Part shown: piece by piece, positions 25,455 to 49,150 of the stretch
Numbering within the stretch: the first letter of the stretch is position 1
Layout: each line of letters opens with the position of its first letter
Source: Tardiphaga sp.
Lineage (GTDB): Bacteria; Pseudomonadota; Alphaproteobacteria; Rhizobiales; Xanthobacteraceae
Direction: 5' to 3'
Assembly (NCBI RefSeq): GCF_028290495.1
Contig: NZ_JAQGJT010000124.1
Coordinates: forward strand, 1-64,000
DNA length: 64,000 nt
The notes under the pieces: model-generated
What the model was told of the DNA's origin: nothing
The model's input: the letters and a program-made list of their open reading frames with translations, nothing else
Database searches by the model: none
Translations under genes and position numbers: made by a program

Positions 25455-25576
25455 GATCGATGCTCCGGTCCGGGCCACACCAAAATGTTCGTTGCAACTT
25501 AGGACGGATCAGCCATGTTTCAAGTCAGAAGTCTTCGGATCGGCGGATGTCGAAGGAGGCTTGGGAGGAGGTTTCT

Positions 25577-26761: not shown

Positions 26762-26769
26762 CCAAGGGT

Positions 26770-29449: not shown

Positions 29450-30057
29450 AATTCAAGCTCATCTTCGCGATGCTGATGCTGGGCTTTTGGCCCGGTGCCG
29501 GCCATGCCGCCGATCCGCGCTATCCGGACTGGCCCTGTATGCAGGCGAAGGTTCCCGAGGTCTCGCTTGCTGCGGTGTGGGCGGGGCCCGACCTCGGCGA
29601 TGCCACACAGAAATGGAAGGACGACATCGCCGTCAGCGCGCTGGTGGCGAGGCTTGCGGCGCGGCGTACGCCGCTTGATGAGGCCGACAGAGCGGTGACG
29701 GAATTTCTCGCGGGCTCCAGCGAGCGCAAACTGGACAAAGGCAAGCGCCTGTTCGCCGGTCTGTTCGAGACGCTGAACGGGCAACGTTCTTCGGTGATGA
29801 GCGGGCTGGAACGCATCACCCGCAAGCAGCGCGAAGCCGCGGACGCGATCCGCGCCGCCGGCCAGTCGATGCATGCGCTGCAGGACGAGACGACCTCGGA
29901 CCCGGCGAAGATCGAACAGATCAGTAACCAGTTGCTGTGGCAGACGAGAATTTTCGAAGACCGCCAGCGCGTCATCAAATTCGTCTGCGAAGTTCCGGTC
30001 GCGATAGATCAACGCCTGTTCGCGCTCGGCCGTAGCATCCAGCAGGGCATGGAGTAG
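29446..30057 (+). CDS. Exported helical protein at the end of the PQQ-ABC operon
   Basis: A 203-residue protein with a signal peptide (MKFKLIFAMLMLGFWPGAGHA, about 21 residues). The short motif YPDWPCMQAKVPEVS comes next, then a long, mostly helical charged domain with heptad-like spacing (RITRKQREAADAIRAAGQSMHALQDET). The start overlaps the permease stop, so it belongs to the operon. No functional family was recognised; a periplasmic partner of the ABC system is inferred from position. Confidence 0.75.
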   Translation: MKFKLIFAMLMLGFWPGAGHAADPRYPDWPCMQAKVPEVSLAAVWAGPDLGDATQKWKDDIAVSALVARLAARRTPLDEADRAVTEFLAGSSERKLDKGKRLFAGLFETLNGQRSSVMSGLERITRKQREAADAIRAAGQSMHALQDETTSDPAKIEQISNQLLWQTRIFEDRQRVIKFVCEVPVAIDQRLFALGRSIQQGME

Positions 30058-30061
30058 GGGC

Positions 30062-30406
30062 TCAGCCCAGCAGCCGCTTCTTGTAGGCCACCGGGTCCAT
30101 GTCGCGGATATCGACGCTGAGGCTCTTCGTCTGCGGCAGCAATTGCACCATCGTCGTACGAATAGCTTCGCTCAGCAGCACCTTCTGCTCGGGCGTCCGC
30201 CCCTCCAGCAGGTACAGCGTGACATGGCAGAAGCCGTCGCGTTGGCCCGCAACCAGATAATCCGAATAGGCCAATGTGCGGATCTTGAGGTCGGCGGCCT
30301 GCACCACGCCGGTGCCGGCGGCGGCGTCATGCAACGCGCGCATGAGGGCGGCGGCATCGAACTGCGCGTGGCCGTCGGTGGAATGTTCGATGATGATGTG
30401 CGGCAT
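30062..30406 (-). CDS. 5-carboxymethyl-2-hydroxymuconate isomerase-like tautomerase
   Basis: A 114-residue protein of the CHMI branch of the tautomerase superfamily. ATG 30406 gives MPHIIIEHS, placing the catalytic Pro right after the initiator Met, which decides the start. Members isomerise ring-cleavage products in aromatic catabolism (homoprotocatechuate pathway). No ring-cleavage dioxygenase is nearby, but the IclR-Rieske module begins just upstream on the same strand, so a role in aromatic degradation is plausible. Confidence 0.85.
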   Translation of the reverse strand: MPHIIIEHSTDGHAQFDAAALMRALHDAAAGTGVVQAADLKIRTLAYSDYLVAGQRDGFCHVTLYLLEGRTPEQKVLLSEAIRTTMVQLLPQTKSLSVDIRDMDPVAYKKRLLG

Positions 30407-30438
30407 GTCTGAATTTCCTCGGGAGCAGTTTACCATTT

Positions 30439-30516
30439 CCCCGTCATTGCAAGGAGCGCTAGTTCTTCTCTCGCACGAGGCTTCTGGATTGCTTTGCTGC
30501 GCTCGGAATGACGGGG
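30439..30516. repeat. Dispersed palindromic repeat (CGTCATTGC type)
   Basis: CCCCGTCATT (30439-30448) and AATGACGGGG (30507-30516) are the outer arms, with CTGGATTGCTTTG inside. It is related to the copy at 26800-26883. It lies between the IclR stop and the tautomerase start and may separate their transcripts. Confidence 0.8.
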
Positions 30517-30525
30517 AGGGCCTTG

Positions 30526-31314
30526 TTACAGCAGCATCGACTTCACGGAATCGGAAGCCTCGCGCAGCAGCGGCAAGAAGCGGTCGATCATCTCGCCGGT
30601 GGAGATGCGGTCGACATGCGCGCCCATGTTGATGGCGGCGACGATCTCGCCGTCATAGCGGCGCACCGGCACCGAGATCGAGCGGAAACCCGGCTCGGCC
30701 TCGCGGTCGACCAGCGAATAGCCTTTCTCACGGTCGGTCATGATGGAGGCGAGCAACAGATCCCGGTCGATGACGGTGAACGGCGTCATCGCCTTAAGCT
30801 CCATCGCGGCCAGGGCTGCGGCGAGATCGCTGTTGCTGTACTTGCCGAGCATCGCCCGGCCGACCGAGGTGCAGTAGGCCGGCAGCCGGTAGCCGAGATC
30901 GATCCCCGCCGAGAAAACCCGCGCCGGGCTGGCGCGCGCGATGAAGATCACCTCGTCGCCATCAAGGATCGCCAGCGAGGAGATTTCCTGCGCGGCGCTG
31001 GAGACGCGGTCGAGCACCGGCTGAAGCACCGCCACGATCTGGTTCGACGAAAGGTACGACGCTGCCAGTACCAGCACACGCGGCGTCAGCGTGAACATCT
31101 TGCCGTCGATGGCGACATAGCCGGCGCGCTCCAGCGTGAACAGAATGCGCCGGGCCGTGGCGCGCGGCAGGCCCGCGGCCTTGGCCAGATCGCTCAGCGT
31201 CATCGGCCTGGGGTCGGCGCCGAACAATTCAAACACGCGCAAGCCGCGGTCGAGGCTTTCGATGAAGTCGGTGTTTCCGCGCTCCTCGCCCTCGGCGCGC
31301 TTCGGCTTCACCAT
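30526..31314 (-). CDS. IclR-family regulator of the amide/Rieske module
   Basis: A 262-residue regulator. The N-terminal winged helix (about 15-75: LDRGLRVFELFG..MTLSDLAKAAGLPRATARRILFTLERAGYV) is followed by an IclR effector domain with GYRLPAYCTSVGRAMLG, the usual ligand-pocket block. It belongs to the Pca/Pob-type activators or repressors of aromatic catabolism. The gene follows the FAD reductase by 13 nt on the same strand. Two GTTC-N4-ATTGAAC sites in the divergent promoter at 32616 and 32775 are its probable targets. Confidence 0.9.
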   Translation of the reverse strand: MVKPKRAEGEERGNTDFIESLDRGLRVFELFGADPRPMTLSDLAKAAGLPRATARRILFTLERAGYVAIDGKMFTLTPRVLVLAASYLSSNQIVAVLQPVLDRVSSAAQEISSLAILDGDEVIFIARASPARVFSAGIDLGYRLPAYCTSVGRAMLGKYSNSDLAAALAAMELKAMTPFTVIDRDLLLASIMTDREKGYSLVDREAEPGFRSISVPVRRYDGEIVAAINMGAHVDRISTGEMIDRFLPLLREASDSVKSMLL

Positions 31315-31327
31315 GCGCGGTCCCCCG

Positions 31328-32548
31328 TCACGCGGCGGCTTCCACTTTCTTGAGATCGAATGAAAGGTCCGCGGCCTGTTCCGGCGAAGGCGACAGCGAT
31401 GCCGCGATCAGCCGACGCGCGATCATCTGGTCACCCGGCTTGTTGATGCTGTCCACGGCCATCAACCTGGCCTCGCGATAATAGAACACCGAGAACTTGC
31501 CGTCACTGAGCGCGCCGCGGATGACGGCCGTATCGTCGGGGCCGGACAGTCCGACGATCTGCAGCTTCGCATCATATTGGTCGGACCAGAAGCGGGGTAC
31601 GGCGACATAGGGTTCGAGGTGGCCGGCGATCGCCGTGCCCGCGGCCTTGCCCTGGTCGGTGGCATTCTGCACCGATTCCAGCCGCACGCGGCGGCCGGCG
31701 AAGATGTTGTGATGGTTGCTGCAATCGCCGGCGGCATAGATGCCCGGCACGCCGGTGCGGCCGTATTCGTCGACATCGATGCCGTTGGCGCAGGGAATGC
31801 CTGCAGCGGAGGCGATTTCGTCATTGGCGATGCCGCCGATGCCGGCGACGATCAGGTCGCCGCGGACGCGGTCGCCGTTCGAGCAGATCACCTCATGCAA
31901 TGCGCCGTAGTTCTCGATCGCCGTGACGCTCTGGTGGAAACGGATATCGACGCCGTGCGCAACATGCATGTCGAGCAGGAACTGCGAGATCAGCGGCGAC
32001 ACCGCGCGCTCCAGCAGCCGCGACACCGCCTCGATCATCACCACCTTCTTGCCGGCCTTTGCCGCGGTGGCCGCGACTTCGAGCCCGATGAAGCCGCCGC
32101 CGATGATGACGACCTCGTTCGCCGCCTCCAGCCGTGGCTTCAGGTCCACCGCATGATCCAGCGTGCGCAGATAGACGATGTCCGCGCCACCCGCGCCCGG
32201 CACGGTGAGCTGCCGCGCCCGCGATCCGGTGGCGATCAGCAATTGATCAAAGGCCAGGTGCTCGCCTCCTTCGAGTTCGACGCGGCCCGCGTCGCGATCG
32301 ATGCGAACGGCGCGATGGCCGAGCATCATCTCGATATTCTGCGCTTTAAAGTAATCGTCGCCGCGCAGGATCAGGTTGCTGTGGGCGACGCTGCCCGACA
32401 GGAACCCCTTCGACAGCGGCGGCCGCTGATAGGGCAGGTGGATCTCGTCGGCGACGATGCGGATCGGCCCCTGATAGCCCTTCTCCCGGGCGCTGATGCC
32501 GGCCTGCACGCCAGCATAGGACGCGCCGATGATGACCAGGCCGCTCAT
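31328..32548 (-). CDS. FAD-dependent ferredoxin/rubredoxin reductase-like oxidoreductase
   Basis: A 406-residue NAD(P)H-dependent flavoprotein of the BphA4/rubredoxin-reductase type. The FAD fold is at the N-terminus (VIIGASYAGVQAGISAREKGY). The NAD fold is VVIIGGGFIGLEVAATAAKAG near 150, and the second FAD contact is GIYAAGDCSNHHN near 275. It could feed electrons to the Rieske oxygenase encoded divergently at 34548. Enzymes of this type normally reduce a small ferredoxin, and none is encoded here. ATG 32548 starts the protein directly at MSGLVIIG; an upstream in-frame start exists. Confidence 0.9.
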   Translation of the reverse strand: MSGLVIIGASYAGVQAGISAREKGYQGPIRIVADEIHLPYQRPPLSKGFLSGSVAHSNLILRGDDYFKAQNIEMMLGHRAVRIDRDAGRVELEGGEHLAFDQLLIATGSRARQLTVPGAGGADIVYLRTLDHAVDLKPRLEAANEVVIIGGGFIGLEVAATAAKAGKKVVMIEAVSRLLERAVSPLISQFLLDMHVAHGVDIRFHQSVTAIENYGALHEVICSNGDRVRGDLIVAGIGGIANDEIASAAGIPCANGIDVDEYGRTGVPGIYAAGDCSNHHNIFAGRRVRLESVQNATDQGKAAGTAIAGHLEPYVAVPRFWSDQYDAKLQIVGLSGPDDTAVIRGALSDGKFSVFYYREARLMAVDSINKPGDQMIARRLIAASLSPSPEQAADLSFDLKKVEAAA

Positions 32549-32615
32549 GAGAACAAACCCCTGCAGGGGGTCTGGGCAATACAAGTCACAGTCATGTAGG
32601 GATTTCCGCCGTTTG

Positions 32616-32630
32616 GTTCAGTGATTGAAC
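32616..32630. promoter_or_regulatory. Candidate IclR operator, copy 1
   Basis: GTTC-AGTG-ATTGAAC, which is also the perfect inverted repeat GTTCA-N5-TGAAC. It lies 68 nt upstream of the FAD reductase ATG, in the region divergent with the amidohydrolase gene. It shares GTTC-N4-ATTGAACA with the site at 32775. Pca/Pob-type IclR proteins bind GTTC-containing palindromes, so the local IclR is the likely ligand. Confidence 0.55.
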
Positions 32631-32774
32631 AATAGTTCCTGGACCCGGCTTGGCAAGGCGCAACGCCTGCGGCCACGCCACTGCGGCAAATTGCCGGTTT
32701 TATTCGCGCGCTGATCCAAATTGAGGCTTGTCAGTTTCCCAGTTCAGAGTCAGTCTAATCAAATACGGACATAC

Positions 32775-32789
32775 GTTCGTCTATTGAAC
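32775..32789. promoter_or_regulatory. Candidate IclR operator, copy 2
   Basis: GTTC-GTCT-ATTGAAC, 20 nt before the ATG of the exported amidohydrolase. It is the second copy of the motif at 32616. A matching ATTGAAC half-site lies at 34530-34536, just ahead of the Rieske gene. Confidence 0.55.
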
Positions 32790-32809
32790 ATTTGCGGCGG
32801 GGGCTGTTC

Positions 32810-34510
32810 ATGAATCGATCTGCGAGGTTGCTGGTTTCGTGCATGATGGCGGGCGGTGTGCTGGGCCAACCGGCTTGGGCGCAACAGGCTGACCGGACTG
32901 CCCCCGGGCTGGTGCTGGCCGGCGGCAAGATCCTCACCATGGACGGCAGATCCACGGTCGCCGAGGCGCTGGCTATCCGCGACGGGCGGATACTCGCGGT
33001 TGGCAGCGATGCCGCTATCAGGATGCTGGCCGGGCCGCAGACCCGGGTGATCGATCTGGCCGGCAGGACCGTGCTGCCCGGCCTGATCGATACGCACACG
33101 CATTTCAGGGCAGCAGGCCTCGGCGAGTACGTGGTCAACCTCGGCGCCGCGAAAAACGTCGCCGGCGCGCTTGAACTCATCAAGGCGTTCGTCGCGAAGA
33201 AGAAGCCCGGCGAATGGATCGTCACCGGCGGCTGGCATCCGCCGTCGCAACTCGCCGAGAAGCGCTACCTCACCCGCCAGGAGCTCGACAGCGTTTCGCC
33301 GGACAATCCGGTCTATCTGCGCACCGTCGGACACTTCGCCATGGCCAACTCGCTGGCCCTGAAGCAGGCGGGGATCGATCGGACCACGTCCGATCCGGTG
33401 GGTGGATCCTTCGAGCGGGATGCCTCGGGCGACGTTACCGGCGTTCTGGTGGAAACCGCGATCCCGCAGGTCGAAAAACTCGTGCCTGCCTACAGCGAGG
33501 ACGACGAAATCCGACAGTACACCATTGCCCAAAAGACGCTCAACAGTTTCGGAATCACCAGCGTCGTCGAAGGCGCCACCAGTGCGCATGACACCCGTAC
33601 CCTTGAGAAGATCGCGCTTTCTGGCGCGGCGACCGTGCGGGTCGGCACCATGTTCTGGCCGGAGCCGCCGGCCGATCTGGCGGTGTGGGACGCGATCATG
33701 AACGGCAACGGGACCGCATCGGGCTTTGGCGACGAGTGGCTCAAGCTCGGCGGCATCAAGATCTTCTACGACGGCGGCATGACCCTGAAGACTGCGATGA
33801 TGCGCGAGGCCTACCCGGACTCGCACAACGACTATCATGGCGTTGCCCAGCAGACTCCAGAGCGGCTGAGGCAGCTTGTGTCGATCGCCAACAAGTACAA
33901 CTGGCGTGTCGGAGTGCACGTGGTTGGCGATCTCGGCATCGATCAGGTGCTCGACGCGCTCGAGGCGGTCGACAAGGAGAAATCCATCCGGGACCGCCGT
34001 TTCGGTCTGATCCACGCCAGCCTGATACGGCCTGAGCAGGTGGAGCGTGCGGCGAAGCGGGGCGTCCGCATCGATTTCCAGAATGTGTTCATGTGGGACA
34101 AGGCGGCGACCGTCGAGCGCTTTCTCGGCAGGCCAACCGCCGATCGCGCCGTTCCCACTAAAACCATGATCGACAAGATGGGGCTCGATAACCTCGGCGC
34201 CGGCACTGACTTTCCGGTCAACCCGATCAACCCGTTTCTCAACATGTACATCATGGTGACGCGGAAGGATCCGGCCGGCCAGGTTTACGGTCCATCGGAG
34301 GCGATCAGCCGCGAGCAGGCGCTGCGCCTCTATACAAGCGCCGCATCCCGATACATGTTCGAGGAAGCGCAGAAGGGCACGCTGGAGGCCGGCAAACTCG
34401 CCGATCTCGTAGTCCTCTCCGCGGATTTCATGAGCGTTCCGGAAGACCAGATCAAGGATATTAAGGCCGAGTTGACGGTGGTCGGTGGCAAGATTGTATT
34501 TCAGCGCTGA
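32810..34510 (+). CDS. Exported amidohydrolase, YtcJ-like (amidohydrolase 3 type)
   Basis: A 566-residue metal-dependent hydrolase. A signal peptide (MNRSARLLVSCMMAGGVLG..AWA) is unusual for this family and places it in the periplasm. The metal motif GLIDTHTHF lies near residue 95, VGVHVVGDLGID near 370, HASLIRPEQ near 400 and GAGTDFPVNPINP near 465. The composite beta-domain holds both ends of the protein. Known relatives include N-substituted formamide deformylase, so amide hydrolysis outside the cytoplasm is plausible. ATG 32810 has GGCGGGGG upstream; the TTG at 32792 is not favoured. Confidence 0.88.
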   Translation: MNRSARLLVSCMMAGGVLGQPAWAQQADRTAPGLVLAGGKILTMDGRSTVAEALAIRDGRILAVGSDAAIRMLAGPQTRVIDLAGRTVLPGLIDTHTHFRAAGLGEYVVNLGAAKNVAGALELIKAFVAKKKPGEWIVTGGWHPPSQLAEKRYLTRQELDSVSPDNPVYLRTVGHFAMANSLALKQAGIDRTTSDPVGGSFERDASGDVTGVLVETAIPQVEKLVPAYSEDDEIRQYTIAQKTLNSFGITSVVEGATSAHDTRTLEKIALSGAATVRVGTMFWPEPPADLAVWDAIMNGNGTASGFGDEWLKLGGIKIFYDGGMTLKTAMMREAYPDSHNDYHGVAQQTPERLRQLVSIANKYNWRVGVHVVGDLGIDQVLDALEAVDKEKSIRDRRFGLIHASLIRPEQVERAAKRGVRIDFQNVFMWDKAATVERFLGRPTADRAVPTKTMIDKMGLDNLGAGTDFPVNPINPFLNMYIMVTRKDPAGQVYGPSEAISREQALRLYTSAASRYMFEEAQKGTLEAGKLADLVVLSADFMSVPEDQIKDIKAELTVVGGKIVFQR

Positions 34511-34547
34511 GCGGTGACGCGATCGTAATTGAACGGGGAAACTCACC

Positions 34548-35906
34548 ATGATGAGCCAAGAGCAGAATGACCTGATCACGCGCATCGGTCCGAAGGCGCC
34601 CGCCGGCAAGTTGATGCGCCAATACTGGCAGCCCGCGGCGCTGGTCGACGAGTTGGAAGGCGAACGGCCGATCCGGCCCGTCAAACTGCTTGGCGAGGAT
34701 TTCGTGCTGTTTCGCGACGATCAGGGCCGCTACGGCCTGCTCGATCGCGACTGTCCGCACCGCGGCGCCGATCTGGCATTCGGCCGGCTCGAAGGCGGCG
34801 GCGTGCGCTGCGCGTTCCATGGCTGGCTATTCGATGTCGAAGGCAAGTGCCTGGAAACCCCGGCCGAGCCGGTCACCTCCAAACTTTGCGCCGGCATCAA
34901 GCAGCGCGCGTTCCCCGTCGTCGAGAAGGGCGGCATCCTGTGGGCCTATCTCGGCGAAGGCGAGCCGCCGGCCTTCCCGGAGCTGGATTGTTTCGCCGCA
35001 CCCGGAGTCTACACCTTTGCCTTCAAGGGCTTGTTCGACTGCAACTGGCTGCAGGCGCTGGAAGTCGGCATCGATCCCGCGCACGCCTCGTTCCTGCACC
35101 GTTTCTTCGAGGACGAGGATACTTCGGCTGCCTATGGCAAGCAGTTCCGCGGCGCCTCGTCCGGCAGCGAGATGCCGATGACCAAGATCTTGCGGGAATA
35201 CGATCGGCCGATCATCAACGTCGAGTCGACCGAATTCGGCCTGCGGCTGATCGCCCTGCGCCAGCTCGACGACGAGCGCACCCATGTGCGCGTCACCAAC
35301 CAGATTTTCCCGCACGGCTTTGCGATTCCGATGAGCACGGAGATGACCATCACGCAGTGGCACGTACCGGTCGATGATGAGAGCTGCTACTGGTATGCGA
35401 TCTTCACCAGTTACACCAAGCCGGTGGACAAGGTGAAAATGCGCGAGCAGCGCCTCGAACTCTACGAGCTGCCAAACTATGTCTCGCGCAAGAATCGCAG
35501 CAACGATTACGGCTTCGATCCGCACGAGCAGGCGCATGAGACCTATACCGGCATGGGCGCCGACATCAACGTTCACGATCAGTGGGCGGTGGAATCGATG
35601 GGCAAGATCCAGGATCGCACCCGCGAGCATCTCGGCACCTCAGACAAGGCGATTATCGCTTATCGAAAACTGCTGCGGCAGGAGATCGAGAAGGTCGCCG
35701 GCGGCCAGAAGCCGATGATGTTCCTCGACGCGGGCAACGCGCGCAGCATCCAGGGCCCCGCCACGATGGACGGCATCGGCCCGACCCGCGGCTGGGAAAC
35801 CTACTGGATGGAAGTCGACGTCGCCCGCCGTCGTGGCGCGCCGTGGGCTGCGCCCGTGCCGAACGAAACGCCGGCCACCGTCACGCGCCTCACGGCCGCC
35901 GAGTGA
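34548..35906 (+). CDS. Rieske non-haem iron oxygenase, alpha subunit (phthalate-dioxygenase-like)
   Basis: A 452-residue terminal oxygenase. The Rieske 2Fe-2S motif is CPHRGAD-x9-CAFHGW (about residues 67-92). The mononuclear-iron ligands are in the block ALEVGIDPAHASFLHRFF near 170-187 (Asp, His, His). The domain order and length match the single-component-type oxygenases (phthalate, phenoxybenzoate, vanillate group), which hydroxylate or dealkylate aromatics. No beta subunit is present, as expected for this group. It follows the amidohydrolase by 37 nt and precedes the GS-like ligase by 31 nt. Confidence 0.93.
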   Translation: MMSQEQNDLITRIGPKAPAGKLMRQYWQPAALVDELEGERPIRPVKLLGEDFVLFRDDQGRYGLLDRDCPHRGADLAFGRLEGGGVRCAFHGWLFDVEGKCLETPAEPVTSKLCAGIKQRAFPVVEKGGILWAYLGEGEPPAFPELDCFAAPGVYTFAFKGLFDCNWLQALEVGIDPAHASFLHRFFEDEDTSAAYGKQFRGASSGSEMPMTKILREYDRPIINVESTEFGLRLIALRQLDDERTHVRVTNQIFPHGFAIPMSTEMTITQWHVPVDDESCYWYAIFTSYTKPVDKVKMREQRLELYELPNYVSRKNRSNDYGFDPHEQAHETYTGMGADINVHDQWAVESMGKIQDRTREHLGTSDKAIIAYRKLLRQEIEKVAGGQKPMMFLDAGNARSIQGPATMDGIGPTRGWETYWMEVDVARRRGAPWAAPVPNETPATVTRLTAAE

Positions 35907-35937
35907 TCGGCTTCCCATTGTTTTACAGGAGAGTGCG

Positions 35938-37374
35938 TTGAGTTTCGTCGAACGCCACGGCCTGTGGTCCGCAGAACAGAAGGACGCCGCCGTCCGGCTC
36001 AGACGCATCGTCGAGGAACAGAAGCTGGAAGTGATCCGGCTGTCGTTTCCGGATCAGCACGGCATCCTGCGCGGCAAGACGCTGATCGCCAGCGAGGCGC
36101 TGCGCGTATTGGAGAACGGCTGCAACATCACCACCACGATGTTCGCCAAGGACACTTCGCACAAGTCGGTCTTTCCGGTGTTCACAGCCGGTGGCGGTTT
36201 CGGCATTCCGGAAATGCAGGGCGCAGCAGACGCCCTGATGATTCCTGACCCCTTGACCTTTCGCGTGCTGCCGTGGGCCGAGGCCACCGGCTGGCTGTTG
36301 TGCGACGTGCATTTCGCCGATGGCCGCCCGGTGCCGTTCGCGACGCGCCATCTCTACAAGGGCGTGCTCGCCGACCTCAACAGACGCGGCTATGACTTCG
36401 TCGCCGGTCTCGAGGTCGAGTGTCACATCTTCAAGAGCGAAGAGACCCGGATGGCGCCGGAAGATGCCGGGCAGCCCGGACGCCCGCCGGATGTAAGCCT
36501 TCTCTCGCACGGCTTTCAGTATCTCACCGAGCAGCGCTACGACCAGATGGAACCGGTGCTTGAATTCATCCGCCGCGATGTGATGGCGCTCGGCCTGCCG
36601 CTGCGGTCGGTGGAAGTGGAATACGGACCGAGCCAGTGCGAATTCACCTTCGCGCCCACCGTCGGCCTGACGCCGGCGGATTCCATGGTGCTGTTTCGGA
36701 GCGCCGTAAAGCAGATATGCCATCGCCGCGGCTATCACGCCACGTTTATGTGCCGGCCGAAGATTCCCAACGTGGTGTCGTCCGGCTGGCATCTGCATCA
36801 GTCGTTGGTGTCGCGCGACACCGGCAAGAACGCATTTATGTCCACGGATGACGGCGAGCCGTTGTCGCCCTTCGGTCGCGGCTATCTCGCGGGCTTGCTG
36901 GCGCACGCGCGCGCGGCGACCGTGTTCACGACGCCGACCATCAACGGCTACAAGCGCTACCGTTCCTATTCGCTGGCGCCGGACCGCGCGATCTGGGGCC
37001 GCGACAACCGTGGCGCGATGATCCGCGTGCTGGGCGGTCCGAACGATTCCGCGACGCGACTGGAAAATCGCGTCGGCGAGCCCGCCGCCAATCCGTACCT
37101 CTATATGTCTTCGCAAATTCTCGCCGGACTCGACGGCGTCGATCGCGCGCTCGACCCCGGCCTGTCGGCGGATACACCCTATGACAGCGACGCACCGCTG
37201 TTGCCGAAATCGTTGCGCGAGGCGGTGTTCGCGCTGAAGGACGATCCGTTCTTCCGCGAGAAGATGGGCGCGACGATGGTGGATTACTACACCCACATCA
37301 AGAATGCCGAGATCGAGCGATTCCAGGCCGAAGTCTCCGACTGGGAGCAGCGCGAATACTTCGAGATGTTTTGA
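35938..37374 (+). CDS. Glutamine synthetase-like ligase
   Basis: A 478-residue protein of the GS catalytic superfamily, in the branch of gamma-glutamyl-amine ligases rather than GlnA. Metal and ATP blocks are LEVECHIF, VEVEYGPSQCEFTF and SGWHLHQSL. The substrate-side block is PTINGYKRYRSYSLAPDRAIWGRDNRGAMIRV, and ENRVGEPAANPYLYMS comes near the end. Relatives glutamylate amines such as putrescine, anilines or ethanolamine. The start is TTG 35938 (MSFVERHG), chosen because AGGAGAG lies just before it and no ATG is near. Position suggests it activates an amine handled by the Rieske enzyme. Confidence 0.88.
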   Translation: MSFVERHGLWSAEQKDAAVRLRRIVEEQKLEVIRLSFPDQHGILRGKTLIASEALRVLENGCNITTTMFAKDTSHKSVFPVFTAGGGFGIPEMQGAADALMIPDPLTFRVLPWAEATGWLLCDVHFADGRPVPFATRHLYKGVLADLNRRGYDFVAGLEVECHIFKSEETRMAPEDAGQPGRPPDVSLLSHGFQYLTEQRYDQMEPVLEFIRRDVMALGLPLRSVEVEYGPSQCEFTFAPTVGLTPADSMVLFRSAVKQICHRRGYHATFMCRPKIPNVVSSGWHLHQSLVSRDTGKNAFMSTDDGEPLSPFGRGYLAGLLAHARAATVFTTPTINGYKRYRSYSLAPDRAIWGRDNRGAMIRVLGGPNDSATRLENRVGEPAANPYLYMSSQILAGLDGVDRALDPGLSADTPYDSDAPLLPKSLREAVFALKDDPFFREKMGATMVDYYTHIKNAEIERFQAEVSDWEQREYFEMF

Positions 37375-37457
37375 AGCGGCGGCTTGCGGTCTTTCCGGCA
37401 CGTTTATTGAATACAGCTTTCCGACAAAGTTTTCTCCCTTCAACGAGGACTGCTCTG

Positions 37458-38636
37458 ATGAACCGATCCACAAAATCGATCCTGTCCGTCGCCATCCTGG
37501 CCTTGATGAGCGGCACCGCTTCCGCCGACGTCATCAAGGTCGGCGTGATCGGCACGATGTCCGGTCCCTACGCGCTGTTCGGCGCCAACTACAAGATGGG
37601 CATCGACGCCTGGGTCGCCGAGCATGGCAACAAGGTCGGCGAGCACACCATCGAATTCATCTACAAGGACGAGGAAGGCCCGAATCCCGCGAAGTCCAAG
37701 GCGCTGGCGCAGGAGTTGATCGTCAAGGACAAGGTGCAGTATCTCGCCGGCATGTACTTCACGCCGAACGCAATGGCCGTGGCGCCGCTGCTGGAAGAAT
37801 CCAAGACGCCGCTGGTGGTGATGAATGCCGCGACGTCCTCGATCGTCGAAAAGAGCCCCTATATCGTGCGCACCTCGTTCACGATGTGGCAGAACACCGT
37901 GCCCGCTGCCAACATCGCCTTCAAGAACGGCTCGAAGAAGGTTGCCATCGCCGTCAGCGACTATGGTCCGGGTATCGATGCTGAAGCCGCGTTCAAGAAG
38001 ACGTTTGAAACCGACGGCGGCGCCGTCGTCGAAGCGATCCGGATTTCGCTCAACACTACCGACTTCAGCCCCATCATGCAGCGCATCAAGGCGGCCGGCG
38101 CCGACACCATCTTCACCTTCCTGCCGTCCGGTCCGCCGACACTTGGTTTCATCAAGGCCTATGTCGACAACGGCCTAAAGGCCGATGGCGTCAAGCTGAT
38201 GTCGACCGGCGACGTCGTCACCGAGATCGATTTGCCGGGGATCGGCGACAACAGTCTCGGCATCCTCTCGACCTATCACTACGCGGTGTCGCACGAGAGC
38301 CCGGAAAACAAGGCGTTTCTCGCGTCCATCGTCAAGAATGGCGGCAAGGTCGAGGACGTCGCGATGACCGGCGTCGCGGCCTATGACGGCGCGCGCGTGA
38401 TCTATGAGATGATCAAGGCCACCGACGGCAAGCGCGATCCGGACAAGGCGATAGCTGCGGTGAAGGGCATGAAGTGGGTCAGCCCGCGCGGCCCGGTATC
38501 GATCGACCCCGACACCCGCCACATCCGCCAGAACGTCTACCTGCGCACCGTAGTCAAAGAGAACGGCAGACTGATCAACAAGGAAAGCGGCACCGTGTTT
38601 CCGGATCAGCCGGATTGGGCGCTGAGCAAGAAGTAA
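37458..38636 (+). CDS. ABC substrate-binding protein, branched-chain amino acid (LivJ/K) type
   Basis: A 392-residue periplasmic binding protein. A signal peptide (MNRSTKSILSVAILALMSGTASA) leads into DVIKVGVIGTMSGPYALFGANYKMG, the LivK-type opening. The two-lobed type I fold is clear over the full length. In catabolic clusters such proteins often bind aromatic acids, amides or ureides instead of amino acids. Here it follows the GS-like gene by 83 nt and heads the importer that continues after a repeat-filled gap. Confidence 0.93.
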   Translation: MNRSTKSILSVAILALMSGTASADVIKVGVIGTMSGPYALFGANYKMGIDAWVAEHGNKVGEHTIEFIYKDEEGPNPAKSKALAQELIVKDKVQYLAGMYFTPNAMAVAPLLEESKTPLVVMNAATSSIVEKSPYIVRTSFTMWQNTVPAANIAFKNGSKKVAIAVSDYGPGIDAEAAFKKTFETDGGAVVEAIRISLNTTDFSPIMQRIKAAGADTIFTFLPSGPPTLGFIKAYVDNGLKADGVKLMSTGDVVTEIDLPGIGDNSLGILSTYHYAVSHESPENKAFLASIVKNGGKVEDVAMTGVAAYDGARVIYEMIKATDGKRDPDKAIAAVKGMKWVSPRGPVSIDPDTRHIRQNVYLRTVVKENGRLINKESGTVFPDQPDWALSKK

Positions 38637-38644
38637 CAACTAAA

Positions 38645-38771
38645 CTGTCGTTCCGGGGCGCGAGCGCACCTGCGCGAGCGAGCCCGGAACCTCGGAATGA
38701 GACGATGAACATCTCGGGATTCCGGATCTGCATCGGCCGGCTTTGCCGTCCGCTGCATCCCGGAATGACAG
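38645..38771. repeat. Dispersed palindromic repeat between binding protein and LivH-type permease
   Basis: CTGTCGTTCCGGGGCGCGAG opens and GCATCCCGGAATGACAG closes the element. The last 16 bases match the arm of the repeat at 7309-7375. It lies in the longest gap of the importer operon and may hold back read-through from the binding protein into the permeases. Confidence 0.8.
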
Positions 38772-38797
38772 TATTGTGGCCCTTTACCGAGTACACC

Positions 38798-39667
38798 ATG
38801 CGCCTTGCTCTCAGCATCCTTACCGACGCGTTGGCCTATGGCATGGTGCTGTTCATCATCTCGATCGGCCTGTCGATCATGATGGGCCTGATGCGCGTGG
38901 TGAATCTGGCGCACGGCGCCTTCGCGATGATCGGCGGTTACCTCGCCTCCTACGCGATCCGCGACCTCAATGTGCATTACAGCGTCGCCATTCTCCTGGC
39001 GGTCGTCGGCACCATCATCGTGTCAATCCCGTTCGAATTGCTGCTGTACCGCCGCATCTATCGCAAGTCCGATCCACTGATCCAGGTGCTGATGACCATC
39101 GGCATCACCTTCCTGATCATCGGCGTGGTCAATTTCATCTTCGGCCCGACGCTGAAGCCGATCCCGCTGCCGCCATTGTTGAGCGGTCCGCTCGATATCG
39201 GCTTTCGTTCGATCCCGACGCACCGGCTGTTCGTTGTCGCCTGCGGCGTCGTCACGGCGCTTTCACTGTGGTGGCTGATCGAGAAGACCGAGTTCGGCAT
39301 CAAGCTGCGCGCCTCCGTCGATCACAGCGGCATGGCGGATTCGCTGGGTATTCGGACCGAGATTATCTACGCCGTCACCTTCGCGCTGGCGATCGGGCTT
39401 GGTGCCTTCGGCGGCGTGGTCGGCGCCGAAATCCTGCTGATCGAGCCGTTCTACGCCCTGCGCTACATGGTGACGTTCCTCGTCGTGGTCTCGGTCGGCG
39501 GCGCCGGTTCGATCATGGGGGCGCTGTCGGCCTCCATGCTGCTCGGCCTCGCCGATACCACCGGAAAATATCTCGCGCCGGAGTTCGGCGAGTTCTTCTT
39601 CTACCTCACCGTCATCGTCATCGTGTTTCTGTTTCCGCACGGCTTGTTCGGGAGATCGCACGCATGA
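38798..39667 (+). CDS. Branched-chain-type ABC permease LivH
   Basis: A 289-residue inner-membrane permease with about eight membrane segments. The LivH signature GLMRVVNLAHGAFAMIGGYLA occurs near residue 35, and the late block VVSVGGAGSIMGALSASMLLGLAD carries the ATPase contact. ATG 38798 (MRLALSIL) is chosen because longer in-frame starts would read through the repeat element. Its stop overlaps the LivM start (ATGA). Confidence 0.93.
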   Translation: MRLALSILTDALAYGMVLFIISIGLSIMMGLMRVVNLAHGAFAMIGGYLASYAIRDLNVHYSVAILLAVVGTIIVSIPFELLLYRRIYRKSDPLIQVLMTIGITFLIIGVVNFIFGPTLKPIPLPPLLSGPLDIGFRSIPTHRLFVVACGVVTALSLWWLIEKTEFGIKLRASVDHSGMADSLGIRTEIIYAVTFALAIGLGAFGGVVGAEILLIEPFYALRYMVTFLVVVSVGGAGSIMGALSASMLLGLADTTGKYLAPEFGEFFFYLTVIVIVFLFPHGLFGRSHA

Positions 39668-40665
39668 GCGAGATCGCGATCAACCACGTGCTGACGAGGC
39701 GGCACACGCCGCTCCTGCATGAAGCGCTGAGCACGCTGGCGATCGCCGCGCTCGGCGCGGTCGGCTATTTCCTGTTTCCGGACGATCTGGCCTTCCTGAC
39801 GCGGCTGATCGGCATCTGCTTCATCGTGTTGTCGCTCGATCTGGTCACCGGCTATTGCGGTATCGCCACGCTCGGCCACGCCGCGAATTTCGGCGTCGCC
39901 GCCTATGCTGTCGGCGTCGCCTGTGTCCGCGGCGTCACTGATCCCCTGGCGTTGCTCGCGGTCGGCCTCTTCGCCGGCGCGGTGATGGGGCTGATCTCCG
40001 GCGCGCTGATTGCGCGGTTCCGCGGGCTGCCGCAGCTGGTGCTGTCGATCGCGGTGGGACAGCTCGTCGCTGCGCTCGCCAACAAGCTGCAATGGCTGAC
40101 CGGCGGCAGCGACGGCCTGTCCGGCATCGTGCCCGGCAAGGTGCTCGGCCTCTATAATTTCGATATGTACAGCCGGACCGCCTACCTGTTCTCGCTCACG
40201 GTTCTCGTCATCGTCTTCGTCGCCTTGTCGCGTTTCGTGCGCTCGCCGTTCGGGCTGATGTGCCGGGCCATCAAGGATGATGACCTGCGCGCCCGGATGA
40301 TCGGCGTTGCGGTCTATCCGCGCCTCGTCCTCATGTACGGCGTGTCGGGCGCGGTCGCCGGCATCGGCGGTGCGCTCACCGCGATGAGTACCGGCGTGGT
40401 CGGGTTGGATGGAGTCAGTTTTGAGCGTTCCGCCGAAGTGCTTGTCATGCTGGTGCTCGGCGGCGCGGGCCATCTGTGGGGCGCGCTGGCCGGCGCGGTG
40501 CTGTTCCAGATCTTCGAGCACATCGTCTCGGCCGCCAATCCGTTCCACTGGATGACGCTGGTGGGGTTGCTGCTGATCCTGATCGTGGTGTTCGCCCCCA
40601 AGGGATTGATCGCGCCGGTGCTGGCGCTAGCGGCACGCCTGACCGGACGGGGCAGGGTGTCATGA
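39664..40665 (+). CDS. Branched-chain-type ABC permease LivM
   Basis: A 333-residue inner-membrane permease, partner of LivH. The family block SLDLVTGYCGIATLGHAANFGVAAYAVG occurs near 60 and the EAA-like loop MCRAIKDDDLRARMIGVAVYPRL near 205. Overlaps of 4 nt on both sides (LivH stop, LivG start) show tight coupling. A much longer upstream extension of the frame is a non-coding shadow across livH. Confidence 0.93.
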   Translation: MSEIAINHVLTRRHTPLLHEALSTLAIAALGAVGYFLFPDDLAFLTRLIGICFIVLSLDLVTGYCGIATLGHAANFGVAAYAVGVACVRGVTDPLALLAVGLFAGAVMGLISGALIARFRGLPQLVLSIAVGQLVAALANKLQWLTGGSDGLSGIVPGKVLGLYNFDMYSRTAYLFSLTVLVIVFVALSRFVRSPFGLMCRAIKDDDLRARMIGVAVYPRLVLMYGVSGAVAGIGGALTAMSTGVVGLDGVSFERSAEVLVMLVLGGAGHLWGALAGAVLFQIFEHIVSAANPFHWMTLVGLLLILIVVFAPKGLIAPVLALAARLTGRGRVS

Positions 40666-41426
40666 GCGGCCTGCTCGAAGCCCGCAACGTCTCGCTCGCC
40701 TTTGGCGGATTGCAGGTGACCCGCGACGTCAGCTTCAGCCTCAACGCCGGCGACCGTGTCGCGCTGATCGGTCCGAACGGCGCCGGCAAGACAACGCTGG
40801 TCAACCTCATCACCGGCGATCTCATGCCGAGTGCCGGCCAGTTCTGGATGGGCGACGACGAGATCACGGGGCACAGCATTCCCGAGCGCGTGCAGCGCGG
40901 GCTGGTGCGCACGTTCCAGACCACGCGGCTGTTCCAGAACCTCACGGTCGCCGACAACGTCGCGCTCGCCATCATGCAGCGCAGGGGGATCAGCAAGCGG
41001 TTCTTCTCGTCAGCGACCGAACAGCCCGAAGTGCGGGCCGAATGGAGCGAGATCCTGAGCAATCTCGGGCTCGATCGCCTCGCTTATCGCCGGGTGATCG
41101 AACTCGCTTACGGCCAGCAGCGGCTGGTCGAACTTGCCATCGGTCTCGCACTGCGCCCCAAAGTGTTGCTGCTCGACGAGCCCGCGGCCGGCGTGCCGCA
41201 TGACGAGGCGCCGAAGATCCTGGAGGCGATCAACTCGCTGCCGGCGGACATCGCGGTGCTGATGATCGAGCACGACATGGATCTGGTGTTCAAGTTCGCC
41301 GCCCGCGTGCTGGTGCTGGCGGCCGGTCGGCTGATCTTCGAGGGATCGCCGAAGGATGTGACCGCGGATCACGAAGTGCGCCGCGCCTATCTCGGGAGCT
41401 ATGCCGATGCCCGCCGCGGCGCTTGA
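40662..41426 (+). CDS. Branched-chain-type ABC ATPase LivG
   Basis: A 254-residue cytoplasmic ATPase. Walker A is GPNGAGKTT near residue 37, the signature LAYGQQRLVELAIGL near 150 and Walker B VLLLDEPAAGVP. The C-terminal LivG motif (DHEVRRAYLGSYADA) is present. It overlaps the LivM stop by 4 nt and the LivF start by about 26 nt. Confidence 0.94.
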   Translation: MSGLLEARNVSLAFGGLQVTRDVSFSLNAGDRVALIGPNGAGKTTLVNLITGDLMPSAGQFWMGDDEITGHSIPERVQRGLVRTFQTTRLFQNLTVADNVALAIMQRRGISKRFFSSATEQPEVRAEWSEILSNLGLDRLAYRRVIELAYGQQRLVELAIGLALRPKVLLLDEPAAGVPHDEAPKILEAINSLPADIAVLMIEHDMDLVFKFAARVLVLAAGRLIFEGSPKDVTADHEVRRAYLGSYADARRGA

Positions 41427-42120
41427 AATCAACGGCCTTTGCGCCGGCTACGGCCCGACCCGGATCATCGAGGACATCGCGTTTTCGGTGCAGGCCGGCG
41501 ATCGCCTCGCCGTGCTCGGCCGCAACGGGATGGGCAAGACCACGTTGCTGGCGACCCTGATGGGCCTTACTACGCGCCACAGTGGCCGGATCGGCATCGG
41601 CGGCGAGGACGCCACGTCGATGCGGACGTCCGCGCGCGTCGGGCTTGGTATCGGCTACGTGCCGCAGACCCGCGATATCTTTCCATCCTTGACGGTGGAG
41701 GAAAATCTGCGCACCGGGCTGAAGGGGCGTCTGCCCACGGCGCTGGACGAGGCCTATGCGATGTTTCCGCGGCTGCGCGACCGCCGCCGCAACTACGGCA
41801 TGCAGCTCTCGGGCGGCGAGCAGCAGATGTTGTCGATGGCCCGCACGCTGCTGGGCAAACCGCAGGTGCTGCTGCTCGATGAACCGCTGGAAGGTCTGGC
41901 GCCGGTGATCTGCGACGAGTTGATGGCGCTCTTGGGCCAGCTCGCCGCCAGCAAGGAGGTCACCATCATCCTGGTCGAGCAGCAGATCGAGCGCGCGCTG
42001 GATTTCGCCGACAGCGTCATGGTGCTGGAGCGCGGCCGCACCAGCTGGACCGGCAGACCGGAGGCGTTGAGATTGGACCGCGCGCTGGTCGACAGACTGG
42101 TCGGCGTGGGCATCCATTAG
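41401..42120 (+). CDS. Branched-chain-type ABC ATPase LivF
   Basis: A 239-residue ATPase that pairs with LivG. Walker A is GRNGMGKTT near 42, the signature LSGGEQQMLSMAR near 138 and Walker B VLLLDEPLEGLAP, typical of LivF. ATG 41401 or 41407 starts it inside the livG end. A weak 5-6 bp GC hairpin just after the stop (42122-42140) may end the operon. It completes an importer whose substrate probably feeds the amidohydrolase/Rieske/GS-like enzymes. Confidence 0.94.
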   Translation: MPMPAAALEINGLCAGYGPTRIIEDIAFSVQAGDRLAVLGRNGMGKTTLLATLMGLTTRHSGRIGIGGEDATSMRTSARVGLGIGYVPQTRDIFPSLTVEENLRTGLKGRLPTALDEAYAMFPRLRDRRRNYGMQLSGGEQQMLSMARTLLGKPQVLLLDEPLEGLAPVICDELMALLGQLAASKEVTIILVEQQIERALDFADSVMVLERGRTSWTGRPEALRLDRALVDRLVGVGIH

Positions 42121-42336: not shown

Positions 42337-42669
42337 TGCGCAGCTCCTGTTTGCATGCGGCGAAAACGCGCGGCTCCCATAGTTGGTTCCTCCAGCCGCG
42401 CAGAAGCCTACCGATTGGGCCTGCAAAGCGAGAAAAGCCCAATTTAAACGGCCCCTTAACCAAAACATCCCTAAATGTAGAGGCGCGCGGCGGGCTCGAA
42501 CGAGCGGTCCTGCGGCTTCGACGTTGACCGCCAATTGGCTGTTTCCGCGACGGCAAAGGTCCGGATTTTCCGGGTGAGTAGGGTTCAGGATGGGCGTCGC
42601 TTGCAGGGATGGCTGGTTGCTTCGTGAAGGCTGCGCTACCGCAGCCCGCAGCCTTGGCGTGAATGCGTG
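42337..42669. other. Intergenic region before the exopolysaccharide locus
   Basis: About 333 nt between divergent genes, with no convincing ORF. An AT-richer stretch near 42445-42480 could hold a promoter. A GC-rich part around 42480-42520 looked briefly like a tRNA arm but does not fold into a cloverleaf. No clear operator was found. Confidence 0.5.
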
Positions 42670-44994
42670 ATGGCCGAGATGCAACAACAGCCCTCCACCA
42701 TTCCCGCGCCTCCGGACGCCGCCGGTCCCAGCCCGGTGCAGACGATCTGGCGCCATCGCTCGTTGTTCGCCGCAGTGTTCTGCGGCGTGCTCGTGCTGAC
42801 CGCCGTGCTGCTGGTCGTGCTGCCGGTGCGCTATCTCGCGGTCGGCTCGGTGATCGTCGCCGAGCAGGAGCCGGGCGGCACCGCGAACGTTAATTCCTCG
42901 GTATGGGCGCAGAAGATCGGCGATCCCGCGGACGTCGAGAGCCAGTTGCTGGTGATCCGCTCGCCGCGGCTGATGCGGCTGGCGATGGCGGCGCCGGGCG
43001 TGGTCGATGCCGCGGTCCTGGAGTGCCAGACCGGTTTCGGCGGCGGCTCGTCCTGCGACAAGATGAAGACCGACAGCGGCGCTTTCGTCGATTACGTTTC
43101 CTCGCGCTATTCGATCGGCGCGGTCGGCCGCTCCCGCGTCATCAACATCTCCTATACTTCCTCGCTGGGCGAAGTCGCGCAGACAATGGCCAATGCGCTG
43201 ACCAATGCTTTCCTTGCCGATCAACGCGTTGCCGGCTCCGACAGTCGCGAGATCGCCGCCTCCTATCTCTGGAAAGAAGTACGCCAGCTCGATGCGGAAG
43301 TGCGCGAGGCCGACAGCAAGATCCAGGCATTTCGTCGCACCAAGGGTTTGATGCGCGGCTCGATCGCGCCGATCAGTTCGGAACGTCTCACCAGCATCAG
43401 CCAGCAGCTCTCGACCGCCGAGGCGGCACGCGCTGATGCGCTCGCGAGGCTGCAGGAGATCAAGGCCAGCGCTTCGCGCGGCGCCTTCGATGCGCCCTCG
43501 GTGCTGGCGAACCGCTCGATCGCCGATCTCAAACAGCAGCTCACCGTGGTCGCCGCGCAATATGCCAGCCAGGCCAATGTGCTCGGCCCCCGCCATCCGT
43601 CGCTGCGCGCGCTGGAGCAGGAGCAGATCGCGATCAAGGACCGCATGACGGCGGAAGTCGCCAACATCTCCTCCAGTGCCCAGAAGGCCTATGATGCCAA
43701 CGATACGCTGGTCAATTCGCTGAAGAAGCAGATGGAGACGGTGAAGTCCGAAGTCGGCTCCGCGACATCCGACGAAGCTTCGATCGAGAGCATGGTGCGT
43801 GGCACCGAGATCAAGCGCCAGCAATATGCCGACCTCTACAAGCGCGCCTCCGAGCTGGAGACCGAACGCCGCGTGCTGATCGGTAGCACAAGGCTGGTCA
43901 GCCTGGCCGAGTTGCCGGCCAAGCCGTTCTTCCCGAAGAAGATCCCGTTCCTCGCCGCCGGCGCCACTATCGGCCTGCTCCTGGCGCTGAGCGCCGCTTT
44001 CTTTGGCGACCGGTTCAAGTTTGGCAACCTGCGGCAGTTCACTCCCGCGCCGCGTCGTGATGTGCCCGACGAGGCTGTGCCGGCCAGCACCATGCCGGCT
44101 GCCGCTGCGCCGCCTGCCGCTGTGTCAGCAGCCGCTGCGCCGTTGATCGTGCCGGAAGTCACGGGCGCGAGGCCGATCCCGATGGCTGCGCCGGCGCCGG
44201 CCGGTTCGTTGTCTGAACTGGCCGTCGTCACGGGTGCGCCGATTCTGGCCCGGCTGCCGTCGATCCGGAAACCCCCGGAATCCGCGATTGGCGCTATCCT
44301 CACCGCGCAGTCCGGCGCATCGCTGACGAAGTCGCTGGCGCTGGCGCAGCAGGACCGCGCCTTCCAGGACGGGCTGCGGCAACTGTCGGCTGGATTGTTT
44401 GCCGGTCATGATAGCAAGCGACGCCATCTGCTGGTGGCGTCACCGGCGCCGGCTGAAGGCAAGACTTTCCTGACGTTGGCGCTGGCGCAGTATCTGGCGA
44501 TGTCCGGCCGTAACGTGCTGGTCGTGGAATGCGATCTCGGCGCGCCGAAGTTCGAAGCCGCGCTCGGGCTGCGCGGCAGTATGGGGTTGCAAGGCATTTT
44601 GCGAGGCGACGTCCAGCCGCGTGACGTCGTGGTCCGCACCTCCACGGCCAATCTCGATGCCATCGCGGCGGGGCCGTTCGCAAACTCGGCCGATTTGATC
44701 ATGCAAAAGCCGCTGGCCGATCTGCTGCAGTGGAGCCAGATTTACGACGTTGTGCTGATCGATGGCCCGTCGCCGACCGTACAGCTCGATATCGGCGTGC
44801 TGGCGCGGCAGGTCGATGGCGTCCTGATGTGCATGCGCACGGGCCGCTCCTCGATCGGTCAGGCCATCGCCACCTCGGCTTCGATCCGTGCCGCCGGCGG
44901 CGACCTCGTCGGCATCGCCATCACCATGGCGCAGTCCGACACCGCCGCCGCCCGTGAGGTCGAACGGATGCCGGCCTATGCCGGCGCGGTCTGA
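42670..44994 (+). CDS. Wzc/GumC-like polysaccharide chain-length and export protein
   Basis: A 774-residue inner-membrane protein. A Wzz domain begins with a membrane helix near 35-58, a long periplasmic coiled-coil region occupies about 190-400, and a second helix sits near 415-440. A Pro/Ala-rich linker leads to a C-terminal BY-kinase-like domain with Walker [10 protein letters not shown] near 605, Walker A' VLVVECDLG and Walker B VVLIDGPS. The Tyr-rich tail of true BY-kinases is absent; only one Tyr lies near the end. So autophosphorylation control may be lost or different. ATG 42670 is preferred over GTG 42667. The stop overlaps the next start (TGATG). Confidence 0.9.
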
Positions 44995-47527: not shown

Positions 47528-47609
47528 CAAGTCCAAACAGCATTGCCGTGATCGGCGCAGTCCCTGAAGCCGGCCCAATGGGCTCCCTCCGAGCCGTGGC
47601 GGTATAGCC

Positions 47610-49106: not shown

Positions 49107-49150
49107 AGGATGTTTTGGGATAGAACGCGCTCTGTGGTTGGGAAGTTTCC

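Follow-up and report, generated by a model that had tools for sequence, protein, structure and literature searches.

The DNA analysed here, referred to as the window, is the first 64,000 nucleotides of contig NZ_JAQGJT010000124.1 from a draft genome of Tardiphaga sp. (GCF_028290495.1; 5.77 Mb in 231 contigs, 99.39% complete, 5.95% estimated contamination). Positions 30062-42120 carry a divergent gene cluster built around a Rieske oxygenase and a glutamine synthetase (GS)-like ligase, which is probably an operon for the uptake and breakdown of 4-aminobenzoate (PABA). All of the genes that a first-pass annotation had placed in this interval were found, in the order and on the strands it gave, and gene starts were refined by eye using start codons and alignments. 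The tautomerase, regulator and reductase genes are on the minus strand, and the plus strand runs from the amidohydrolase through LivF:

30062-30406, minus strand: CHMI-type tautomerase (PF02962 at 46.2 bits, above 26.5), beginning MPHIIIEH..., with proline directly after the methionine
30526-31314, minus strand: IclR-type regulator, PcaR/PcaU/PobR subfamily (TIGR02431 at 308.7 bits, above the subfamily cut-off of 284.75); the proposed local regulator
31328-32548, minus strand: flavin adenine dinucleotide (FAD) ferredoxin reductase, AndAa/HcaD-like, with Pyr_redox_2 and Reductase_C domains
32616-32630, no strand: predicted operator-like site GTTCAGTGATTGAAC, 68 bases from the reductase start
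32775-32789, no strand: predicted operator-like site GTTCGTCTATTGAAC, 21 bases ahead of the amidohydrolase ATG
32810-34510, plus strand: exported YtcJ/Amidohydro_3-type amidohydrolase (PF07969 at 367.6 bits; signal peptide judged by eye)
34548-35906, plus strand: Rieske oxygenase alpha subunit, LigXa_C/phthalate type (PF00355, PF19301)
35938-37374, plus strand: GS-like ligase, GoaS type (PF00120 at 262 bits; TTG start)
37458-38636, plus strand: aromatic-acid binding protein of the importer, named for its identity to 4EVS and 4F06
38798-39667, plus strand: LivH-type permease (PF02653; ATG at 38798)
39664-40665, plus strand: LivM-type permease (PF02653), overlapping LivH by 4 bases
40662-41426, plus strand: LivG-type ATPase (PF00005, BCA_ABC_TP_C), overlapping LivM by 4 bases
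41401-42120, plus strand: LivF-type ATPase (PF00005), UrtE/LivF-like and under the equivalog cut-offs

The neighbours among the LivH, LivM, LivG and LivF genes overlap at their ends. Assignment of this transporter as a urea importer was rejected, every Urt score being below its cut-off.

The cluster was compared across 128 loci: 80 from named genomes (the best 80 of at least 591), 40 from further relatives holding the Rieske gene, and eight plasmid loci. At each of them the Rieske gene is 58% or more identical, partner genes were counted within 9 kb of it, the sulfanilate degrader Novosphingobium resinovorum SA1 is counted twice (L093 and L097), and some contigs entered from two sources. The ligase gene accompanies the Rieske gene at 126 of the 128 loci, and the two loci without it (L053 and L077) are stretches that end just past the Rieske gene. 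Because this pair is so consistently kept, the gene set is real and more than a chance association. The remaining genes are found at fewer loci, namely the regulator at 104, the binding protein and the reductase at 39 each, the tautomerase at 32, a 2Fe-2S ferredoxin at 18 and the amidohydrolase at 17. Among 17 loci from the same genus, selected for holding the Rieske gene and several of them cut by contig ends, the ligase and the binding protein are present at all 17, LivH and LivM at 16, the regulator, the reductase and LivG at 15, the tautomerase and LivF at 14, the amidohydrolase at seven, and the ferredoxin at none. Of the 296 family genomes examined, 144 encode the Rieske protein (E 1e-100 or better), its closest named relatives among the matches listed being those of Bradyrhizobium sp. 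LTSP885 and a Tardiphaga metagenome-assembled genome. Importers and regulators vary from cluster to cluster: Polaromonas combines a Liv-type importer with a GntR regulator, Pseudooceanicola algae has a tripartite ATP-independent periplasmic (TRAP) importer, and the Cupriavidus and Caballeronia clusters have symporters whose best model is PcaK, but below its equivalog cut-off; the cut-off of the aromatic-acid symporter subfamily is exceeded by the Cupriavidus symporter and narrowly missed by that of Caballeronia. The conserved core is the Rieske oxygenase together with the ligase, and transport and regulation are interchangeable. Of the neighbourhood of amidohydrolase, Rieske, GS-like and Liv genes envisaged in the first-pass annotation, the Rieske-ligase pair has held up as a conserved unit and the amidohydrolase has not.

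The ligase is 44% identical to NpaA1 (PDB 8WWU). NpaA1 is a 1-naphthylamine gamma-glutamyl ligase with structures 8WWU, 8WWV and 8X6Z, and its amine entry tunnel is formed by loop V68-M81 plus F75, F86 and W235, with F75 as the bottleneck residue (PMC11335346). The window ligase aligns to this loop without gaps, where the extra N-terminal (15th) motif loop of the glutamyl-organic amine synthetases (GoaS) would be expected, and its K71, H75 and K76 fall at the positions of NpaA1 F75, S79 and S80. The alignment comprised 132 distinct sequences, of which 119 are of the present type (at least 58% identity), five are aniline-type and eight were set aside. Lysine at the F75 position is found in 119/119 ligases of the present type, histidine at the S79 position in 118 and arginine or lysine at the S80 position in 118, counts that are taken over proteins related by descent and do not represent independent events. 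The five aniline-type ligases, so labelled by gene layout and in the case of NpaA1 also by its paper, have F/H/V, then S/G, then T/A/S/G at these positions, and none has all three basic residues. Taken singly, K71 fails a strict filter for basic versus non-basic residues, since histidine occupies that position in one aniline-type ligase; four columns that lie outside the loop do pass. Eight ligases had been set aside: five of them are encoded next to a single-component Rieske gene and retain K71, three of these five having asparagine at 75, and the other three, which include the second ligase of the Tardiphaga genome itself, have lost it. Among the 119, only the SA1 ligase departs from H75, and it has asparagine at window positions 75 and 77, so that the known sulfanilate user differs in this very loop. 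In a first tree, built without SA1, the single-component-type ligases were split from the rest with support of 99/98; in a second tree that included SA1 the deepest split was weak (51/24), and a group of 12 holding the window and SA1 ligases had support of 97/95. A basic tunnel of this sort fits an amine bearing an acid group, and the window ligase is the proposed maker of gamma-glutamyl-4-aminobenzoate. The second GS-like organic-amine ligase (about 45%) lies at C203:44444-45913 (L106 8442-9995), near genes for a glutamine amidotransferase, a 2Fe-2S ferredoxin and a GntR/aminotransferase-type regulator, and that region is probably a separate amine pathway.

Over 370 amino acids the binding protein of the importer is 78.4% identical to 4EVS and 78.6% identical to 4F06, both of them crystallised proteins. 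Near-identical proteins are encoded at locus L135 (99.7% to 4F06) and in genome G199 (99.5% to 4EVS, rising to 100% over residues 2-369), and both of these loci have the gene order IclR-Rieske-ligase-binding protein-LivHMGF. Of 16 Rhodopseudomonas genomes, 13 encode the binding protein, and each of these 13 also has the Rieske gene on the same contig, 1,570-1,585 bases upstream. We take 4EVS to be RPA0985 of Rhodopseudomonas palustris. RPA0985 was stabilised most by 4-hydroxybenzoate, with a thermal shift of 29.5 degrees (PMC3223731), and RPA0984, the adjoining locus tag, is GlnA4, a putative GS whose function is described as elusive (PMC10100968). By this relationship the importer would serve an aromatic acid, most likely 4-aminobenzoate.

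The regulator gene is accompanied by a conserved pattern. After identical upstream stretches were dropped, 124 were kept for the count (L109 and L125 were left out, having no upstream stretch), and the 15-base pattern GTTC-N7-GAAC was present in the 350 bases preceding the first gene on the plus strand at 101 of the 102 loci with an IclR gene, as against 1 of the 22 without. The 2.38 Mb of sequence outside those upstream regions contained 29 further occurrences. The single IclR locus lacking it is that of SA1, which is broken by insertion elements. The window itself has three matches, versus 0.7 expected by shuffling, with two in the divergent promoter and the third at 44204, outside the module. 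A refined pattern, GTTCRNNTANYGAAC, has a single match in the genome, and its reversed control has one on each strand; because the control also matches, the evidence for an operator is conservation beside the regulator gene and not rarity. GTTC-N7-GAAC is the predicted operator of the IclR regulator.

The nearest solved structures to the Rieske protein are 9INA, 7FHR and 7FJL; 9INA appears in a paper on isophthalate dioxygenase, and 7FHR is named a putative phthalate 4,5-dioxygenase. No beta subunit was found among the open reading frames scanned in 30062-42120, and the oxygenase has a single alpha subunit. For the divergent reductase, the proposed electron supplier to the Rieske protein, the best NCBIfam model is AndAa at 321.8 bits, under the cut-off of 650.

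From these components the following route can be proposed. 4-Aminobenzoate would enter the cell through the Liv-type importer, handed over by the aromatic-acid binding protein, and the ligase would use ATP and L-glutamate to convert the amino group, giving gamma-glutamyl-4-aminobenzoate. The Rieske protein, receiving electrons from the divergent reductase and an unlinked ferredoxin, would then add O2 across ring carbons 3 and 4, after which glutamine would be released to leave protocatechuate, which would enter the beta-ketoadipate pathway via PcaHG, whose genes lie outside the cluster. Control would fall to the IclR regulator, sensing an aromatic acid and acting at the GTTC-N7-GAAC sites of the divergent promoter, and outside the cytoplasm the exported amidohydrolase may cleave amide-bound forms to release the amine. 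Both PcaH and PcaG score above their equivalog cut-offs on another contig of the same genome, and therefore protocatechuate could be used. The first-pass claim that the ligase turns an aromatic amine into a masked gamma-glutamyl amide ahead of the Rieske oxygenase, with the importer serving this route, is supported.

The surroundings of homologous clusters on plasmids point the same way. Three plasmid clusters have a Pfam-confirmed 4-hydroxylaminobenzoate lyase, PnbB, with a nitroreductase gene adjoining it in two and about 9 kb off in the third. Of 72,556 plasmid records 26 have a PnbB match, whereas among the 11 that encode a Rieske protein of at least 60% identity the number is 7. In six of these seven the gap between PnbB and the Rieske gene is 2.2 to 10.3 kb; the last has a gap of 26 kb and a PnbB match of only 38% identity. 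On plasmids 0.3 to 1.9 Mb long, the short gaps argue for a joint para-nitrogen-benzoate theme. Taken together, the importer, the regulator subfamily, the tunnel residues of the ligase and the cluster neighbours indicate an aromatic acid as the substrate, most likely 4-aminobenzoate.

A number of points weigh against this assignment. The PnbB-bearing plasmids are related large replicons, so that their records are not independent, and PnbB had no match in the Tardiphaga genome, where, since no control genome matched either, absence is not shown. The best-matching cluster with a known phenotype, that of SA1, is tied to sulfanilate and not to PABA, and asparagine at position 75 is also found in three distant ligases of no assigned substrate. 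No glutamine amidotransferase was found among the open reading frames scanned in 30062-42120. No 2Fe-2S ferredoxin gene was matched on the window's contig at E 1e-10, and therefore the ferredoxin must come from elsewhere; the genome has three homologues on offer, and clusters in other organisms place the ferredoxin gene beside that of the reductase. Given the estimated contamination of the draft, the membership of genes on other contigs is uncertain. No assay of these proteins with 4-aminobenzoate was found in the literature searched, and aminobenzoate is absent from the available main text of PMC3223731 and PMC6079105. Because these RPA0985 papers do not mention it, we infer binding of 4-aminobenzoate from its hydroxyl analogue.

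The same features can be set against other substrates. A basic tunnel and an aromatic-acid importer require only an anionic aromatic amine, so that another amino-aromatic acid (3-aminobenzoate, anthranilate, 4-aminosalicylate or 4-aminophenylacetate) would satisfy them; this we regard as unlikely, as 4-hydroxybenzoate gives the greatest stabilisation in the binding-protein group and the PnbB neighbours, going by their Pfam name, act on a para-substituted benzoate. The cluster could also be a sulfanilate (4-aminobenzenesulfonate) system proper, working by the same chemistry with 4-sulfocatechol as the product. The sad operon comprises sadA (4-aminobenzenesulfonate 3,4-dioxygenase), sadB (glutamine synthetase), sadC (ferredoxin) and sadD, and the same paper cites a sulfanilate-degrading Bradyrhizobium (PMC5632844). 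Plasmid pSA3 of SA1 encodes a Rieske protein 80% (79.6%) and a ligase 71% identical to those of the window, along with a tautomerase, a ferredoxin and a reductase, and about 40 kb away it has 4-sulfocatechol genes including a 4-sulfomuconolactone hydrolase and a dioxygenase pair; the pSA3 Rieske-ligase pair are presumably the sulfanilate enzymes of SA1 and counterparts of SadA and SadB. Three proteins of the Tardiphaga genome are 38-44% identical to the SA1 4-sulfomuconolactone hydrolase, which alone decides nothing. However, the importer and the regulator indicate a carboxylate, and SA1 stands alone among the 119 ligases in having asparagine at 75 and 77. Moreover, a second dioxygenase pair, for 4-sulfocatechol, would be expected where sulfanilate is used completely, and the Tardiphaga draft has one pcaHG pair, one other PF00775 protein and no second protocatechuate-dioxygenase pair. 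A sulfanilate system is for these reasons unlikely in the window.

The route put forward in the first-pass annotation was different again: a periplasmic amidase would free a neutral, aniline-type amine from an anilide or formanilide, and the amine would be imported, glutamylated and attacked at the ring. An exported Amidohydro_3 gene does head the operon, and a 50% identical protein is encoded beside the homologous cluster of Cupriavidus pinatubonensis. Yet the amidohydrolase gene is kept at so few of the 128 loci, the importer group binds aromatic acids, and the five aniline-type ligases, which lack the basic loop, all lie beside two-subunit Rieske enzymes (four of them also beside an annotated glutamine amidotransferase). 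With the importer, regulator, tunnel residues and neighbours all indicating an aromatic acid, release and import of a neutral amine is very unlikely. Membership of the aniline type was itself rejected, the window having neither a beta subunit nor a glutamine amidotransferase and having the basic tunnel loop. In a further reading the Rieske and ligase genes are mere neighbours, the first encoding an O- or N-demethylase and the second an enzyme for an unrelated amine. This is hardly credible: the Rieske protein does have a LigXa_C domain, presumably named after an O-demethylase, but the pair stays together at 126 of 128 loci and in both Alpha- and Betaproteobacteria, with regulators and importers that differ between clusters.

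Two genes of the cluster would be accessory in the 4-aminobenzoate reading. Missing from 111 of the 128 loci, the amidohydrolase is an accessory step only. Its residues H96, H98, H370, H402 and D467, which we take to be the metal ligands, are invariant; none of the 25 listed NCBIfam equivalogs scored above its cut-off, and an AlphaFold model from a five-sequence alignment had a mean pLDDT (predicted local distance difference test) of 39.7. That it releases the amine from amide-bound forms is a guess. A second Amidohydro_3-like gene, not present in the window, lies between the binding protein and LivH genes at 25 of the 38 loci with both; Pfam confirms one such gene, and in three examples (L118 4647-6329, L110 13016-14692 and L113 4191-5825) a signal peptide was not evident by eye. 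The tautomerase would likewise be an accessory part of the module; its gene lies within 9 kb of the Rieske gene at a quarter of the loci (32/128) and adjoins the ligase gene in SA1 pSA3 and Pseudooceanicola algae. Also on pSA3, a dihydropteroate synthase gene (folP, L097 20768-21598) is found about 8 kb from the Rieske-ligase pair; dihydropteroate synthase uses 4-aminobenzoate. Upstream of the module in the window, at 25460-30057, genes for a periplasmic binding protein, a beta-propeller protein, an ATP-binding cassette (ABC) ATPase and an ABC-2 permease stand in a row, and downstream, at 42667-51311, is an exopolysaccharide-type cluster (GNVR/CbiA-domain protein, glycosyltransferases, Wzy-like protein, MurJ-like flippase and polysaccharide deacetylase). 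A short intergenic repeat element occurs at 30470-30516 and 26793-26834, with a similar-looking stretch at about 38640-38790; a query with 30062-31500 gave 18 further short matches in the genome, all to this part of the query, that at 26793-26834 being one.

The combination of genes had been thought undescribed in the first-pass annotation, a view that the sad operon rules out, as it and the aniline and naphthylamine systems are built alike (PMC5632844, PMC11335346). Like the window, the sad operon has a GS-like ligase gene adjoining its oxygenase gene, plus a reductase, and SadA is probably a single-component Rieske oxygenase of the same kind, its presumed pSA3 counterpart being 79.6% identical to the window protein; sad also has a ferredoxin gene, whereas none was found in the window cluster, and unlike sad the window has an aromatic-acid ABC importer and a PobR/PcaR-type regulator and a likely carboxylate substrate. 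The chemistry is therefore already known from sad, and the module most likely operates as sad does, with 4-aminobenzoate in place of sulfanilate. Gan et al. (2017; PMC5632844) described the sad operon as conserved across Hydrogenophaga strains presumably little exposed to xenobiotics, and considered its original substrate likely to be a natural compound closely resembling 4-aminobenzenesulfonate; for the question they left open, our analysis names 4-aminobenzoate as a candidate. No 4-aminobenzoate glutamyl ligase or dioxygenase was recognised in the available text of the literature searched, which included a review of aromatic-amine degradation (PMC4539516) and a paper on 3-aminobenzoate (PMC9584955) and did not extend to subscription journals. 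As a wider and more tentative proposal, the Rieske/GS-like pair is possibly a widespread natural aerobic route for 4-aminobenzoate with sad as its offshoot, GlnA4 being a gamma-glutamyl-aminobenzoate ligase and the K71-H75-K/R76-T/S77 loop, from which SA1 differs at 75 and 77, helping to set carboxylate versus sulfonate. If true, this would give a function to the GS-like proteins of many Bradyrhizobium and Rhodopseudomonas genomes and provide a predicted operator and a specificity loop for aromatic-amine catabolism, and the exported amidohydrolase would let the operon harvest amide-bound PABA such as folate fragments.

Other known systems share parts of this arrangement. YtcJ-type amidohydrolases include N-substituted formamide deformylase, and the window protein shares with that group the Amidohydro_3 domain and the expected conserved residues; unlike them it is exported, with no listed equivalog above its cut-off. 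With the GoaS proteins the window ligase shares the GS catalytic domain (PF00120). In Rhodopseudomonas palustris, RPA0984 and RPA0985 place a GS-like protein and an aromatic-acid binding protein side by side under consecutive tags, as in the window, and the two are not interpreted jointly in the portions of the literature examined. The aniline systems (AtdA, DcaQ/TdnQ and NpaA1) resemble the window in joining a GS-like ligase, 44-51% identical, to a Rieske enzyme, with gamma-glutamylation before Rieske attack, but differ in having alpha/beta oxygenases, a glutamine amidotransferase that is usually adjacent, and no basic tunnel loop.

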